NCBI GenBank assembly: GCA_963969595.1
Contig: OZ018417.1
Span: 16,370,501-16,434,500 of the forward strand
DNA length: 64,000 nucleotides
Source of the DNA: Neckera pumila
Lineage: Eukaryota; Streptophyta; Bryopsida; Hypnales; Neckeraceae
Direction: 5' to 3'
Positions 9,801-51,100 of the stretch are shown piece by piece. A model generated the notes under the pieces. That model saw only the letters and a program-made list of their open reading frames with translations. It had not been told where the DNA came from and did no database searches. Position 1 is the first letter of the stretch. Each line of letters begins with the position of its first letter. Made by a program: the position numbers and the translations under genes.

Positions 9801-10997
9801 GAGACTTTGGACTCCTCGATACGCAAAGTATTTCACTAGTTAGAAGCGAAATGATAGGGTCTGTGTGCTGGTTCTTAATACCCACTCCCGTCTGGAATGC
9901 TCCGCTGATGGCTGCCATTGCTTCACGTGCAGTATATGGAGAAAAAGTTTGTGCAGAAGTTGAAGCTAGATCCTCGCGGTGCATCATGGGCACGCCAGAT
10001 ATGGGATGCTGTTCAGATGAACAAAGTGAAGCTCATTCTTCGTCTTCTTATAACTGCTGATGCTAATGCCAACACAACCTTCGAGCAAGTAATGGGTGCT
10101 ACGGAATCTTCTTGGTCACCTTTGGCAAGCCTCGCTGGAGCTCTCTTGCGGAAGAACTCTCTTAGTGGCACTCAGAGTGGCCGGAGGAATCGGAGCGCGT
10201 CTTCGCGACTACTTTCACAGGACGAGTCGGGGTCCCATTCAGGTCCTTCAAGCCCTGGGAGCGTAACTTCTGATGACTCATCTGCAAGTTTGAAAGATTT
10301 CCGGGGGTGCACATTACTGCATATTGCGTGCCAAATTGGGGATCTCATCCTGGTCGAACTACTACTGCAACACGGGGCTCAAGTCAATGTTGTCGATTAT
10401 TTTGGCCGAACACCTCTTCACCACTGTGTTTTGTGTGGTAATAACTCCTGTGCTAAGCTTCTACTTACGAGGTATGTTTCTCAGGCGCATTCGCAAAAAC
10501 TATACGTCACCTCATCATTCTTAAACTGACAAGTCAAAGAATCAAATTTAGTAATCTTGATACTATGAAATCTAAGATCTGTTTTAGATAATGTTTTGAA
10601 GCTACTCCTAAAACATGAGCGCTAATTTTCAAACACTTCTTATGAGCCTCTCAATTAGTGGATCTTGGAGTAGTGAGTAATTGGCTCAGCTATTACTGCA
10701 TTGATAAAGTTTGAGTTCTGAACTGGATTGCTCACATTGCGCACATCAAAGATTCAAGGGCAAGTCGTCAAGTGAACGTTAACTTGTAGGAATGGACAGG
10801 TGGTGGATGTCTCAAACTTCAGCTTTTTTATTTGTGTTTGTGTAGTTCTGTTACTGATCTGTTCATTGATCTGCAGAGGATCAAAGCCCGGTGCTGTGAA
10901 CAACGCGGGTAAAACTCCTTTGGAATGTGCAGTGGAGAGGGGAGGAGCTATCACGGATGAAGAACTATTTATTATGCTTTCTGAAACTAGCAGGTGA
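3803..10997 (+). CDS. AGD3-like: BAR-PH-ArfGAP-ankyrin protein, ACAP-type ARF GTPase-activating protein (AGD1-4 class)
   Basis: Nineteen coding exons join without a frame break: 3803-3847, 5024-5100, 5232-5332, 5501-5571, 5738-5800, 6005-6049, 6341-6406, 6733-6780, 7029-7124, 7380-7421, 7735-7947, 8071-8202, 8390-8515, 8618-8704, 8920-9141, 9396-9523, 9629-9728, 9933-10471 and 10877-10997. The product is about 773 residues. It starts MHFTKLDDSPMFRKQ, the usual start of this family. Order: BAR domain (about 1-235), PH domain (about 293-395; GDWKRRFFVLDSRG), ArfGAP zinc finger (CADC-x16-CIEC near 442-465, with the catalytic arginine in GVHR near 470), then ankyrin repeats (about 675-770). Family members activate GTP hydrolysis by ARF on trans-Golgi/endosomal membranes; SFC/VAN3 of Arabidopsis acts in auxin-linked vesicle traffic and vein patterning. 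As I recall, angiosperm proteins have a longer Ser/Gly-rich loop in the PH domain, reduced here. Two points stay open: exon 15 could begin at 8848, adding 24 residues, and the last exon ends in TGA right at a possible donor. Orthology within AGD1-4 cannot be settled here. Confidence 0.95.
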
Positions 10998-13525: not shown

Positions 13526-13695
13526 GTGACTGAGCGAAGAATTAGTCACGACTCGGCAGATTACCTGGAGGCTACGATTGATCCTCCTTGTGCGCCGAAT
13601 GAGCGACGAGCGTTTGAAGCGGGAGAGTTTCGTTCATTTCATCAGAGCAGACTGTTGCTGGTTGTGGAAGCTTTATACAGTTTGGTAAGAACATG
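13526..13695 (+). other. possible upstream exon (5' UTR or N-terminal coding) of the caspase-NLR gene
   Basis: This stretch is open for 56 codons. It ends at a GTACGT donor in phase 2, which matches exactly the phase needed by the acceptor before 13820. There is no ATG in this frame and an in-frame TAA lies at 13511, so coding use would need a further 5' exon or a short acceptor just upstream. It may instead be leader sequence. Confidence 0.35.
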
Positions 13696-13823
13696 GTACG
13701 TATTCTCTCCTTTTTCTATGTTGTTCATGAAGACCTTGACTTGTTCCATAACGAATTTGAACGTATTTCTTTGGTTTTATGAATTTTTAACACATTATTT
13801 GATTTTTGTTATTTTTTAGGTTG

Positions 13824-16800
13824 ATGTATCATTTCCTGTATTCGAGGTTCATTATGATCATGAGGATGCTCAAAGAAACCTTCAGACAAGAGGTTCCAGC
13901 GTTAGAAGTCATCCTATTTTCTTCAGTGCACTGGATTAACTCGTCCTCATGGTGGTTTGTTTGTGCTGTGCTCTAGGCGTCATCATGTGAATACCCATCC
14001 CGATTCTTGGAGCAAAGTGCAGCTGGGAACACTAAAGTGAAGCGAGGCGATGCAATCCTCATCAGTATGGTGAATTACCCCCAAAAAGGCAAGGAGCGCT
14101 CTGGAGCGGCAGAAGACTTGGGAAGGTTGGAGACTCTTTTCAGTACACTTTGCTTTGACGTAACTAAATATGTGGATAAGGAAGCAAAAGTCTTGATGAA
14201 AAATGTGAGAAACATATCGACGACCAAACCTGAGGAAGCCTTAGATTGTTTTGTATGCTTCGTAAGCGCACATGGTAACACCGACGAGCGTGGCCATTAC
14301 ATTGAAGCTATTGATGACAATTCGGATAACAAGGTGTACATTTATGATGACATCCTCAAGCCGTTGATGACCTGTGATGCATTGGAGGGAATCCCAAAAG
14401 TATTCTTTATTGACTCCTGTCGGGGAGAATACTCAAAACATCAGAATCAATCTCGAGTGAGTGTTGTGGAGTATATTAAAAATCCCGGGAAGGACTCGTT
14501 GGTGGTATTTTCCACAGAGGAAGGAAACGAGTCTTGGCGAGACCCAAATTCTGGAACATACTTTGTTCAAGCACTCTGCAATGTGATTATTCGGAACCAT
14601 GAAAAAGAAGATGTTATAGCTATGGCAACGATGGCGAACAAAATGCTTATCAGGAATACTGCGGCTATTTTGAAAGGCAAGAAAAAGGAGCTCAAGTATC
14701 AGGTGGCACAAACCCACTTCAACCTGACTGGCAAGCTCTTCTGGAGAACAAAAGATCCCTCGGAGAGTTCAGCTGGTAAGCAAATTCTCTGCTGAGTGCT
14801 TTCAACCAAAGTGAAGAGAAGGCCATGATTATATTGAGATTATGGAGCTACTCATTAAATATCATATGATCTGTACTTCTAACCTTGGTAGTTATCTATC
14901 CCTCTAGGAGTTGACACGGACAGAAGTTCGTCTCATTGTCAATTCCAAAAAGTATTGCGAAATTGTTCCTTGGGGGTCTAAATTTTCTTTCGGAGTGGTC
15001 ATTAAAAATTCTTCACTTAGCTTGCGTGCGAGTACTTAGTGACTTTGTGAACTGTTTCGTTGCAGGTCAGGCGAAAAATGCGGGCAACGGTATCGTTGGG
15101 CAAGACCTCCATCGAGAGAAACTCAAAAATTGGTTGTTGTCAAGAGAAACGAAGGGGAATACAGTTGCAGGTGGACTTAAAAGCCAGAGCTTTGGAATTT
15201 CAGGGACGGGCGGCATAGGTAAAACCACGTTGGCTAAGTCCCTGTTTGAGGATGAGTATATCAAATATTTTTTTGATCATCGAGTGTACTGGGTAACATT
15301 AAAAAGGAACCCGAACATTGTCAAGCGCCAGAGGCGATTGATCTCAAAAATTTGCAATGAGATGCCTTCGATGAAGTTTGACACTCAGGCGCTTTTGCTA
15401 GAGGAGCTCAAGCAAAAACTATCAAAAATGAGAAGCATATTTCTAATTTTAGACGATGTCTGGGAGAAGGAGGATGTGGACAACTTGCTTGGAGACCCAT
15501 TTTTGGGTACGTTACCTCCCGGGAGTAAGTGTATTATAACTAGTCGGAAACCTGCGGAGTTGGAGAAGCTCGATACAAATATTCAAGTTGAAAAACTGGA
15601 TGTACTGAACGAGATGGATGCAAGGAAGTTATTCTGTTGCAAGGCATTCTTGAATGAAACCTTGCCTACGGAACAACCCTTGAGAACTGCTGTGGAGGAA
15701 GTGATTGATGCTTGCGGCAAAATGCCAATCCTTCTCGCGACTATTGGTGCTGGTCTATGGGGCGTCGAATATATTGAGTCCTGGGAAGAGGCTCGAGATC
15801 GGTTGAAGCACATCACGGACGATATACCAGGAGTTGATGAAACAATATACCAGAAGTTGATGAAGCAACTGATGATCAGCTATGATGATCTCCCTGAGTG
15901 GCACTTCGGATCTGGCGATAAAATCAGCCTCAAAGACTGCTTTTTGGACTTTGCAGCATTTGCTGAGCAGGAGGAAATTGAAATTTCTGTGCTCATGGAC
16001 CTGTGGGCTAAACCAGGGTTGACTGAAGATGAGATGTACAAGATACTTGAGGAACTGGACCAGAGGTGCTTGGTAAAGATGGATGGCTACTGTTGCCGTG
16101 TGCACGACATCTTCAGAACCCTTGCTGTGCGGAGAGTTCAAGCGCCACCTCCGAAGGAGAGGAAGAGACTGTTCGCATGGGGGATGAGCAATAGCAGGCT
16201 ACCAGAGGGGTGGGGAATTTCTCAGAATGTGGGATCAGGAGATTTTGAGACCGAGAAGATGGTGATAGCGAAGAGTGAGATAAAGACATTCCACCCGAGC
16301 GATGCCATCCTTTTCAGATATTTGACGCATTTACGCATGCTATTTTTGACGTCGAATCTGAATCTGGTGTCACTACCTCTAGAAATCGGATACATGAAGT
16401 GTTTGGAGAAGCTGGATTTAAGTTGGTGTTTAGGCCTGAAGCGATTGCCACGAGAGATCGGTGAGCTGAAGAGCCTTGAGAAGCTGAACATGGCCGGGTG
16501 TTCCTCTCTGACTGCAATTCCGGCTGAGGTTGGCAAACTGAAGAAGTTGCTGGAAATGAACATGCAAAGCTGCGGGATAGTGGAGTTGCCTGTTGAGATT
16601 GGAGAGCTGACGAGTCTGACTTATCTATGCCTGAATGACTGCAACCAGCTTAGAGCTCTTCCTGAAGCGATTGGAAAGCTGAGCAGTTTGGAGAGGCTGG
16701 AATGTGACATGCTGAATATAATGGAGATACCGAAGGCTTTGGGTGATTTGAGTAAGTTGAAGTATCTTTCGTTCGCTGCATGTGGTGCTATCACCAAGAT

Positions 16801-17614
16801 CCCTGCAGAATTTGTGAAGCTGGATAAAGTCAACTCCTTCTGCTTCGCAGCTTGCCATCAACTGGTAACTGTACCGAACGAGCTGGACAAGTTGGTGACA
16901 GAGGGCAGCCTGACATTGTTCGATGTAAGTAATACAAGAGTGATGAACCTGCCGCCATCCCTTCGTGAACTGCAAGATCGTTTTGAGAGCAATTCTCGAG
17001 ATGCCAACGGTGAACCTGAGGCGGAAGGCAATCTGAAGATGCAGAGCTTGCAAATGCGAGGTATGCTCGTGGATCCCACTTCTGTGTTTCACCCAAATAA
17101 CAAGGAGGAGAGACGTGCCTCTTTCGGGCTGGCACGAATTATTTCTATGGTGAAGACTGAGCCATTTTTGAGCCCGCGGTTTGATATGGCCATTCGACTC
17201 ATGTACACTATGGCTAACCTCGACGGCACAAAGCATGCCATCGTGAGATCTGGCGGCCTTCCTGTCCTCCTTCGTTGCATTGACAAAGGTGACCCCAACC
17301 GTTGTGGTCTCCACGCAGCGGCAACACTTCGCAACATTTGTATGACATACTCCACGCACAAAGCTGTTGTTGACGCTGGAGCTCTTTCGGTTCTCACCCG
17401 TGTTTTGAATCGCGAGAATGACATTCGATTTTATGCTCACCAAGCTTTGGAACTGGTTACCAATGGAGATGTCGTAGAGGGTGACTACATGTTCACAACC
17501 GAAATCTATGAACGGTGCGGCCATATTTTTTGGGGATGCAATCTCCGTTGCATTTACTGCAAGGTCGAACAACAATTAGAGAATCCATATGTCAAGGCAC
17601 GCTTGAAGAGCTAG
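13824..17614 (+). CDS. caspase-NB-ARC-LRR-ARM fusion protein (caspase-type NLR)
   Basis: Predicted exons 13824-13892, 13977-14775 and 15066-17614 join in frame (about 1138 residues from the first in-frame ATG). A caspase domain comes first. It has RSG with the predicted Asp-binding Arg at 64, catalytic His in SAHG at 122, catalytic Cys in DSCRG at 171, and a small-subunit signature SWRDPNSGTYFVQAL with the second Asp-binding Arg at 211. Next is NB-ARC: P-loop GTGGIGKTT near 336, kinase-2 LILDDVW near 419, GKMPILLA in the GLPL place, and VHD near 635 in the MHD place. About seven or eight leucine-rich repeats follow (about 707-935), then two armadillo-like repeats (about 1002-1092) and a tail CGHIFWGCNLRCIYC. 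Plants are known for metacaspases, whose catalytic box is normally DCCHSG-like, so a CRG-type caspase is unexpected. The likely role is a cytosolic immune or cell-death receptor with its own Asp-directed protease (inference). The 290-bp intron 14776-15065 has a strong GTAAGC donor and a pyrimidine-rich TTGCAG acceptor. The N-terminus is the weakest part of the model. Confidence 0.88.
14776..15065 (+). other. intron joining the caspase exon to the NB-ARC exon
   Basis: The donor G|GTAAGC follows SSA and leaves one base of a glycine codon. The acceptor ..GTTTCGTTGCAG|GT supplies the other two, giving an uninterrupted frame from the caspase exon into QAKNAGNGIVGQ of the NB-ARC linker. If unspliced, the caspase frame stops at 14795, giving a short caspase-only product. 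This junction is what makes the two domains one protein. Confidence 0.8.
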
Positions 17615-49535: not shown

Positions 49536-49807
49536 GTTGTACCTAATGTACGTTCCCCTAGCAGCTCTTCTAACGCAGAGGTTACTGAAGATTCTTCTTG
49601 GGATTCAGATACTAGTGGTGGCACAAGTTACGACACAAATGACTTTGAAGTGGAAGTATATGCAATTGAAGATCTACCGCAAGTATTAATTTCATCTATG
49701 CGTCACCTAGAAGACTTGGATGTCACAAGTATAAGGAAAATAAAACTTTAAAATTAAAAAAGTTTGGCCCAACACTATCAAGTCAAGAACAGACTGACTT
49801 TGAGCAA

Positions 49808-50404
49808 GTGGTATACAACTATTTAGATCTTTTTGTTTCAAAACACTCAAAGTTACTTGCAATTAACGTTGAAGAACATAAAATAGAACTAACACCTGAC
49901 ACAAAGCCGATAAGAGCCAAACAAAAGAGAATGGCACCCCAAAAGATGGCCATCTTGCGTGCGGAATTGAATCGACTTCTAGAGGGCGGTTTTGTAACCA
50001 AAGTAAAGAACACCGAGTGGATATCTCCTGTGGTCATTGTACCTAAGAAGGGAGGTAAATGTCGGGTTTGTGTAAATTATAAAGTCTTAAATAAGTTCAT
50101 AAAAAAGGATTGTCAACAAGTATCAGGACATGAGATGTACGCGTTTTGCGATGGGTATTCCGGCTATCATCAAATTCATATATACGAAGACAGTATTTTG
50201 TACACCACCTTCACAACTCCGTGGGGCACATATGCATGGCTTTGTATGCCTTTCGATTTGTGTAATGCTAGGAGAACTTTTCAAAGAGTCCAGATCAAGA
50301 TATTTGGTTCATACATTGGGAAATTCATACGCGTTTATCTTGATGATTTTTTAGTCTACAAAGAACGCATATGTCACATTAAACAGGTGAGAGTTGCATT
50401 TTAA
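49808..50404 (+). pseudogene. Ty3-type reverse transcriptase remnant
   Basis: Conserved blocks include ISPVVIVPKKGGKCRVCVNY, MYAFCDGYSGYHQI and the catalytic YLDDF (usual YVDD). About a dozen residues normally found between NKFIKKD and SGHEMY are missing, so there is an internal deletion near 50115. The same frame continues after stop codons into the next block. Confidence 0.85.
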
Positions 50405-51100
50405 AAGTGAAAAGAATATGGATGCTCTTTAAGCCCCAAAAAATGATGTTTAGGACTTGAAGAAGAACCTCTCTTGGGACATATCGTGTGTCAAGAAGAG
50501 ATGAAAATTGACCCTGATAAAGCGCAAAGAACCTTGGAAATGAAACAACCTATTTTGGGTAAGCAGGTGTTGCGGTTATGGGGGACTACATTATACCACA
50601 ACCAATTTATACCAAATTTAGCAGGAATATGGCGACCAATTAGTTTGCTTATAAATAAATCCAGTCCATTTGAATGGAAGGATGAACACAATCAAGCTTT
50701 CTCTTATATAAAAACAAGAATGGCAAGCAATCCAATAGTTCAAGGCCTTGATTGGAATAGGTGTTTTATTATAAATCCCTCTGCTACTGATCTTGCAATG
50801 GCATCAATTCTTATACAGAATGATGATATAGGTTGTGCCCATCCGGTTCATTATGCAAGCAAATGACTTATTCCTTGTAAACAGAAGTATTTGTCATTAG
50901 AGAAACTTGGGATAGCACTTTTGTTTGCGTGCACTAAGTATAAGCATTATTTACTTTCCAGCTCACAGTCAACATTGATCTAGTGTGACACTGAAGGATT
51001 AAAACAACTCATTCAACAATCGCATCCCAAAGGAAGAGCTGCCCGCTTAGTGGCGCCATTACAAACATATGATTTAGAAATAAAGTGACAAAAGGTACAC
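50405..51100 (+). pseudogene. reverse transcriptase connection and RNase H remnant
   Basis: The same frame as the upstream block, broken by TAA, two TGA and later TGA and TAG codons. LLGHIV, FEWKDEHNQAFSYIK and IINPSATDLAMASIL followed by HPVHYASK match the connection and RNase H region of Ty3 elements. Confidence 0.75.

Follow-up and report, generated by a model that had tools for sequence, protein, structure and literature searches.

Does a moss gene carry a caspase at the head of a plant immune receptor? This question is raised by a locus of Neckera pumila lying in a window of 64,000 nucleotides (the whole stretch analysed: contig OZ018417.1, here C10, positions 16,370,501 to 16,434,500, part of a genome of 339.5 Mb in 18 contigs). 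The original prediction, made from the letters alone, placed a caspase domain in front of NB-ARC, leucine-rich repeats (LRRs) and armadillo (ARM) repeats, joined to them by a phase-matched GT-AG intron. At the level of the gene model, this architecture is nearly certain. In Pfam comparisons, the exon at 13977-14775 scored 114.2 bits for Peptidase_C14 (PF00656; cut-off 21.4), and the open reading frame (ORF) at 15066-17614 scored 93.7 bits for NB-ARC (PF00931), 77.9 bits for LRR_14 (PF23598) and 24.4 bits for Arm (PF00514; cut-off 20.6). The two exons were found to join in frame across the GT-AG intron at 14776-15065, which is of phase 1, and the predicted protein has 1,116 amino acids in the order caspase, NB-ARC, LRR and ARM. 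All of the motifs quoted earlier were recovered: SAHG, DSCRG and SWRDPNSGTYFVQAL in the head, and GTGGIGKTT, LILDDVW and VHD in the receptor body. An NB-ARC domain with a P-loop and an MHD-type motif (VHD), followed by LRRs, identifies the body by Pfam and motifs as that of a plant nucleotide-binding leucine-rich repeat receptor (NLR). Judged from sequence, the gene belongs to a conserved, unusual class of plant NLR with a caspase head of its own. Its exons and introns are as follows.

13693..13695, + strand: probable ATG start, closing the first coding exon
13696..13976, + strand: probable intron 1, phase 0 (GT...TAG; N-terminal homology)
13977..14775, + strand: exon 2, encoding the caspase domain (Pfam match over 14046-14693; predicted fold nearest animal caspases)
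14776..15065, + strand: intron 2, separating the caspase and NB-ARC exons, phase 1
15066..17614, + strand: exon 3, an open frame with NB-ARC, LRR and ARM (Pfam); stop codon at 17612-17614

The beginning of the gene had to be revised. Position 13824, where coding had been thought to begin, was found not to be coding. The start codon is most likely the ATG at 13693-13695, which ends the first coding exon and is followed directly by the donor GTACGT; removal of the intron at 13696-13976 would then join M to ASSCEYPS at 13977. This intron was proposed because the resulting N-terminus, MASSCEYPS, matches the annotated Ceratodon start, MASPGEYPS. A start at 14068 (the ATG of MVNYP) was ruled out, as the stretch preceding it is conserved in Ceratodon and in several relatives.

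The head was compared with caspases and metacaspases. Its predicted model has the p20 and p10 parts of the caspase fold, and the nearest proteins both by sequence and by predicted structure were animal caspases; no metacaspase was present among the best 60 of 186 sequence matches or among the best 50 of 1,375 model matches. When one of this genome's own metacaspases was compared in the same way, it matched metacaspase structures. The head has SAHG and SCRG, whereas the metacaspases of this genome have SGHG and CHSG. The metacaspase reading was therefore set aside, and the claim of an animal-type caspase stood in the sequence and predicted-structure comparisons alike. Alignment with caspase-6 identified the His-Cys dyad of animal-type caspases (C14A), with the Cys codon exactly where it had been predicted, and two arginines at aligned positions that we take to be those of the caspase S1 pocket, the latter by alignment only.

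14097..14099, + strand: Arg42, aligned to the first caspase S1-pocket arginine (caspase-6 ERRG)
14271..14273, + strand: catalytic His100 (SAHG)
14418..14420, + strand: catalytic Cys149 (DSCRG)
14538..14540, + strand: Arg189 (SWR), aligned to the S1-pocket arginine of p10

The pentapeptide QACxG, another mark of C14A, was not found, its place being taken by DSCRG in the window protein and by NACRG or NSCRG in relatives. QACxG is usual in animal caspases but is not invariant, since Dronc has PFCRG. Because of this departure, the head is called a caspase-type domain rather than a proven member of C14A.

Relatives of the gene were sought with the head and with the body separately. The search with the caspase region covered 5.8 billion proteins, was restricted to proteins of similar length and scored 1,087 candidates. 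Its sole match was KC19_5G008800 of Ceratodon purpureus, a protein of 1,147 amino acids with C14, NB-ARC, LRR and Arm. In an end-to-end alignment, 737 of 1161 positions (63%) were identical to the window protein. The search with the receptor body gave 1,741 matches from 7,979 candidates scored. Among the best 120 of these 1,741, 13 had 55-68% identity, below which identity fell to 22-38%, mainly with flowering-plant NLRs and LRR proteins. Two of the 13 close bodies are from Ceratodon and 11 from environmental or raw assemblies, in which predicted ORFs apparently end at introns. With a profile built from four caspase domains, 24 further proteins were then found (2,721 candidates). No named animal caspase was among them, a result of little weight since the search method requires shared exact words. 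Equal-sized contigs suggest that a caspase ORF and a receptor body lie on the same contig in four cases (116,872, 20,170, 7,172 and 6,889 bases).

The heads fell into two classes. Twelve of the 24 profile matches are of the window type (class A) and 11 of a second type (class B), which is that of the sister gene described below; P0144, with 28% and 26% identity in two comparisons, is unlike the rest, belongs to neither and was excluded from all class counts. Adding the genes of this genome and of Ceratodon to each brings class A to 14 and class B to 13 members. P0143 appeared by eye to be P0138 minus 31 residues around p10 and was counted for His, Cys and RxGA only. The catalytic His is kept in 14/14 members of class A and replaced by Tyr in 13/13 of class B; Cys is kept in 14/14 and 10/13, respectively, and is part of CRG throughout class A. 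RxGA is present in all 14 class A heads and SxR in the 13 that hold the stretch, P0143 being without it. Even class A members with as little as 41-46% identity have the His, the Cys and the first S1 arginine. In a tree of 26 heads (without P0143 and P0144), the two classes were split by a branch with 100/100 support. As a separate observation, P0005 (jgi, 896 aa) appeared by eye to have a class B start joined to a class A end, its two halves resembling P0007 and P0002, which looks like the product of gene conversion or recombination, or of assembly collapse.

The class B gene of this genome is a sister NLR outside the window, at C10:16474894-16479794 on the minus strand (L013:394-5294), 87 kb away and tail to tail with the window gene. 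It consists of a pseudocaspase head, in which His is replaced by Tyr and Cys by Arg, followed by a segment of about 260 amino acids, NB-ARC-LRR and an ARM-like end. Like the window gene, it has a phase 1 intron just 5' of its NB-ARC exon. The class B gene of Ceratodon, KC19_5G008700, also joins caspase-type and NB-ARC parts, and it carries the locus tag neighbouring that of KC19_5G008800 on one contig. For both genes of the pair, Ceratodon proteins are the closest relatives with a name, in line with a moss. Stable linkage between two distinct NLR types, by which paired NLRs are recognised, was thus found here and in Ceratodon, and from equal-sized contigs we infer two further linkages of class A with class B. 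The segment of the sister carries HG and AHGLGG motifs, which we take to resemble those of alpha/beta-hydrolases; its match in NCBIfam was weak (E 0.0041) and its model was of low confidence (mean pLDDT 60.7).

The caspase-type C14 domains found in the genome are those of the window gene and its sister. There are eight other C14 matches, and the seven examined appear to be metacaspases or a metacaspase remnant. The remnant, at C10:3728033-3728311 (L016), is metacaspase-like and has stop codons.

The LRRs of the two receptors were found to be far more alike than their heads. Over residues 646-845 of the window protein, DNA identity to the sister was 91-98% and 72 of 77 fourfold sites were identical; over residues 286-645, the latter count was 45 of 82.

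16199..16798, + strand: tract closely similar to the sister receptor (residues 646-845; nucleotide identity and fourfold sites), attributed to gene conversion

In columns 500-650 of the body alignment, the two classes within one genome were 82-100% alike in three genomes (this one, Ceratodon and that of P0004/P0009, a class pair probably on one contig), whereas the same class was 68-88% alike across genomes. Because the paired LRRs are more alike within a genome than between genomes, they are read as a case in which gene conversion homogenises mainly the LRR and the heads stay different, as far as sequence comparison can indicate. In columns 300-400, at the end of the NB-ARC part, the classes were 93-100% alike in Ceratodon (P0001/P0008) and in P0004/P0009 and 50-76% alike in the genome of the window. 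After column 650, likeness between classes was 32-71%, apart from 82-88% at the border block alone, and the heads are far apart. Homogenised LRRs would be expected if both receptors must see the same ligand.

Taken together, the comparisons suggest that the class A NLR is probably a one-piece inducer of cell death, whose caspase head would be activated by proximity and tuned by the linked pseudocaspase sister. In the scheme common to NLRs and apoptosomes, a ligand brings about nucleotide exchange and assembly, by which N-terminal heads come close together, and it is proximity that activates initiator caspases. In the moss receptor, the LRR-ARM part would sense the ligand, and nucleotide exchange at the NB-ARC domain followed by oligomerisation would bring the caspase heads together, so that they would be activated without a CARD adaptor. 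The activated heads would cut after acidic residues, a P1 preference suggested by the two aligned S1 arginines. The sister, with its pseudocaspase head and near-matching LRR, may co-assemble with the class A receptor and tune it; regulation by heterodimer is suggested because its head is a pseudocaspase, and c-FLIP tunes caspase-8 in this way. Of the parts of this working, an active, self-triggered protease is likely and a pair with a pseudocaspase regulator is plausible. The idea of a single-chain receptor was upheld insofar as the one-gene fusion is conserved in Ceratodon, but the linked sister makes a probable pair of it. A bolder version can be put forward tentatively and is given limited credence here, namely that some mosses may have a plant apoptosome, in which a catalytically active caspase-NLR and its linked pseudocaspase counterpart, with LRRs held similar by gene conversion, would see the same ligand, co-assemble on activation and fire a caspase through heterodimers, in the manner of caspase-8 and c-FLIP.

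Several observations weigh against the working proposed above. With DSCRG, NACRG or NSCRG in place of QACxG, the acidic P1 preference is not assured. Among the prokaryotic models of NCBIfam, the window head reached just 20.8 bits (cut-off 140) for a bacterial caspase family, for which the metacaspase control scored 27.9 bits. Asp is absent from the linker between the subunits of the window protein, an absence that would fit, weakly, activation without linker cleavage, but one or two linker Asp residues are present in 12/14 class A sequences. Linkage and gene conversion can be a neutral outcome of tandem duplication and of linked copies. Ceratodon is the only named genome showing the architecture, the other relatives being contigs of environmental or raw assemblies. 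Finally, the segment of about 260 amino acids in the sister had no convincing match in Pfam or among PDB chains.

Four other explanations were weighed against this one, and two of them draw on the fact that class B lost the catalytic His while the fold was kept. According to the first of these two, the receptor carries its caspase domain as an integrated decoy that baits an effector aimed at a host caspase, and signalling proceeds via another part of the receptor; a bait role is a common interpretation of extra domains in plant NLRs. However, no free-standing caspase for it to mimic was found in the genome, the head occupies the place of a signalling domain with nothing else N-terminal to the NB-ARC, and the catalytic dyad, which a bait does not need, is kept throughout class A. 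The decoy is consequently considered unlikely. Tolerance of His loss would equally suit a head that is a caspase by fold only and serves for scaffolding or oligomerisation without acting as a protease, as would the replacement of the Gln of QACxG by Asp or Asn. Since the retention of the dyad and of the first S1 arginine in 14/14 class A sequences against the loss of His in class B is the contrast expected if selection holds class A active, a scaffold is also held to be improbable.

The remaining two concern the integrity of the gene and of the contig. If intron 2 were retained, the caspase ORF would meet a stop codon of its own at 14793-14795, and the head and the NLR could be two separate genes joined by prediction only. 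Yet the intron is GT-AG and phase-matched, and the annotated Ceratodon protein (itself an annotation) joins the same parts; the sister repeats the succession of caspase-type exon and NB-ARC exon in the same phase, KC19_5G008700 joins them too, and the same neighbourhood is suggested on four further contigs. Two genes are thus very improbable. A contig chimera or contaminant, with animal DNA joined to plant DNA, is hardly credible: nothing in the data was found to favour it, and it can appeal only to the description of caspases as 'restricted to animals' in the abstract of PMC10896300 or as 'mostly animal-specific' in its introduction. It is opposed by the same fusion in Ceratodon, with 63% identity over the full length, by its probable presence on separate contigs too, and by the diverged sister copy on the same contig.

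The reading as a proximity-activated caspase-NLR places the gene among several known systems. With animal caspases of C14A (caspase-7, -6 and -9) it shares the predicted p20/p10 fold, the His-Cys dyad and the two aligned S1 arginines; it differs in its occurrence in a plant, in the fusion to NB-ARC-LRR-ARM, in the pentapeptide and in that no CARD or DED was found. In Apaf-1 with caspase-9 and CED-4 with CED-3, the partners are different proteins that associate through their CARDs. The NB-ARC ATPase of the moss gene would likewise serve a caspase by proximity, but in one predicted chain with an LRR-ARM sensor. The likeness to c-FLIP and caspase-8 is a proposal, and both putative partners in moss are NLRs. 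Plant metacaspases share Pfam Peptidase_C14 with the head and differ in the motifs given above. Described plant NLRs are alike in the NB-ARC with P-loop and VHD, the LRRs and a variable head, but here the head is a caspase and an ARM repeat follows the LRR.

The heads listed for plant NLRs in the available parts of PMC11218826 and PMC10952240 are CC, RPW8, TIR, hydrolase, kinase and Cbl-N, with no caspase head, and 'caspase' appears a single time in the main text of PMC11218826, in connection with CARD. In the available text of PMC7145615, PMC12512272, PMC4773052, PMC11126693 and PMC11850516, there were no words beginning with caspase; 'metacaspase' occurs once in PMC4773052. According to the review PMC11850516, mosses are without canonical NLRs, which is at odds with the many counted in mosses in PMC11218826. 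In open-licence papers, among the matches listed, no plant NLR headed by an animal-type caspase was found, in agreement with the original prediction that no such class had been described; these genes may be among those that Chia et al. (PMC11218826) catalogued in their data set. The database name of KC19_5G008700 begins 'Caspase family p20 domain-conta' and looks automatic, and the class seems to be visible in databases by name yet undescribed, as far as was found in these papers. All-in-one proteins of a caspase-type protease and a STAND ATPase are reported from bacteria: NLR-related STAND proteins with N-terminal caspases (Kibby et al. 2023) are cited in PMC10952240 and cyanobacterial ones with metacaspase heads in PMC4986451. 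The window gene differs from them in its plant-type NB-ARC-LRR. By tblastn, no relative of the caspase was found in prokaryotes (pattern scan of 84,980 genomes, 77 stretches, with limited reach in distance) or in viruses (pattern scan of viral contigs, 51 stretches).

Plants are regarded as having no caspases. An animal-type caspase head in a plant gene, found here as well as in Ceratodon and on other contigs, contradicts the strict animals-only statement as regards gene content. The locus offers a direct test case for NLR-driven killing by a caspase outside animals and bacteria, and it would add to plant NLRs an N-terminal class whose output is measurable with ordinary caspase reagents. With the conserved His-to-Tyr sister, pseudocaspase regulation becomes testable in a plant. 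Should the plant apoptosome prove true, plants would possess the logic of the animal apoptosome in the form of two receptors, each complete in itself, and caspases would extend beyond the animals.

The features within exon 3 are listed below; the LRR limits are approximate.

15182..15886, + strand: NB-ARC domain (Pfam stretch)
15203..15229, + strand: P-loop GTGGIGKTT (motif)
16100..16108, + strand: VHD, MHD-type motif (motif)
16310..16981, + strand: LRRs (Pfam stretches of PF23598, PF13855 and others)
17231..17341, + strand: armadillo repeat (Pfam stretch)
17516..17560, + strand: C-terminal CGH-x4-C-x3-CIYC

The C-terminal stretch had no Pfam match beyond a chance-level Radical_SAM row, and it presumably resembles a metal site. 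Its motif, C[GD]H ... C[IV]xC, was present in the window protein and in 14 related bodies (15/15). Among neighbouring genes, a DEAD-box helicase ORF (L013:7820-9730, minus strand) adjoins the sister NLR; its zinc-knuckle match was weak and below the cut-off. In the window, retrotransposon fragments with reverse transcriptase and RNase H domains lie at 49670-50866 on the plus strand, and an ankyrin-repeat ORF at 9909-10529, also on the plus strand, is probably part of a neighbouring gene.

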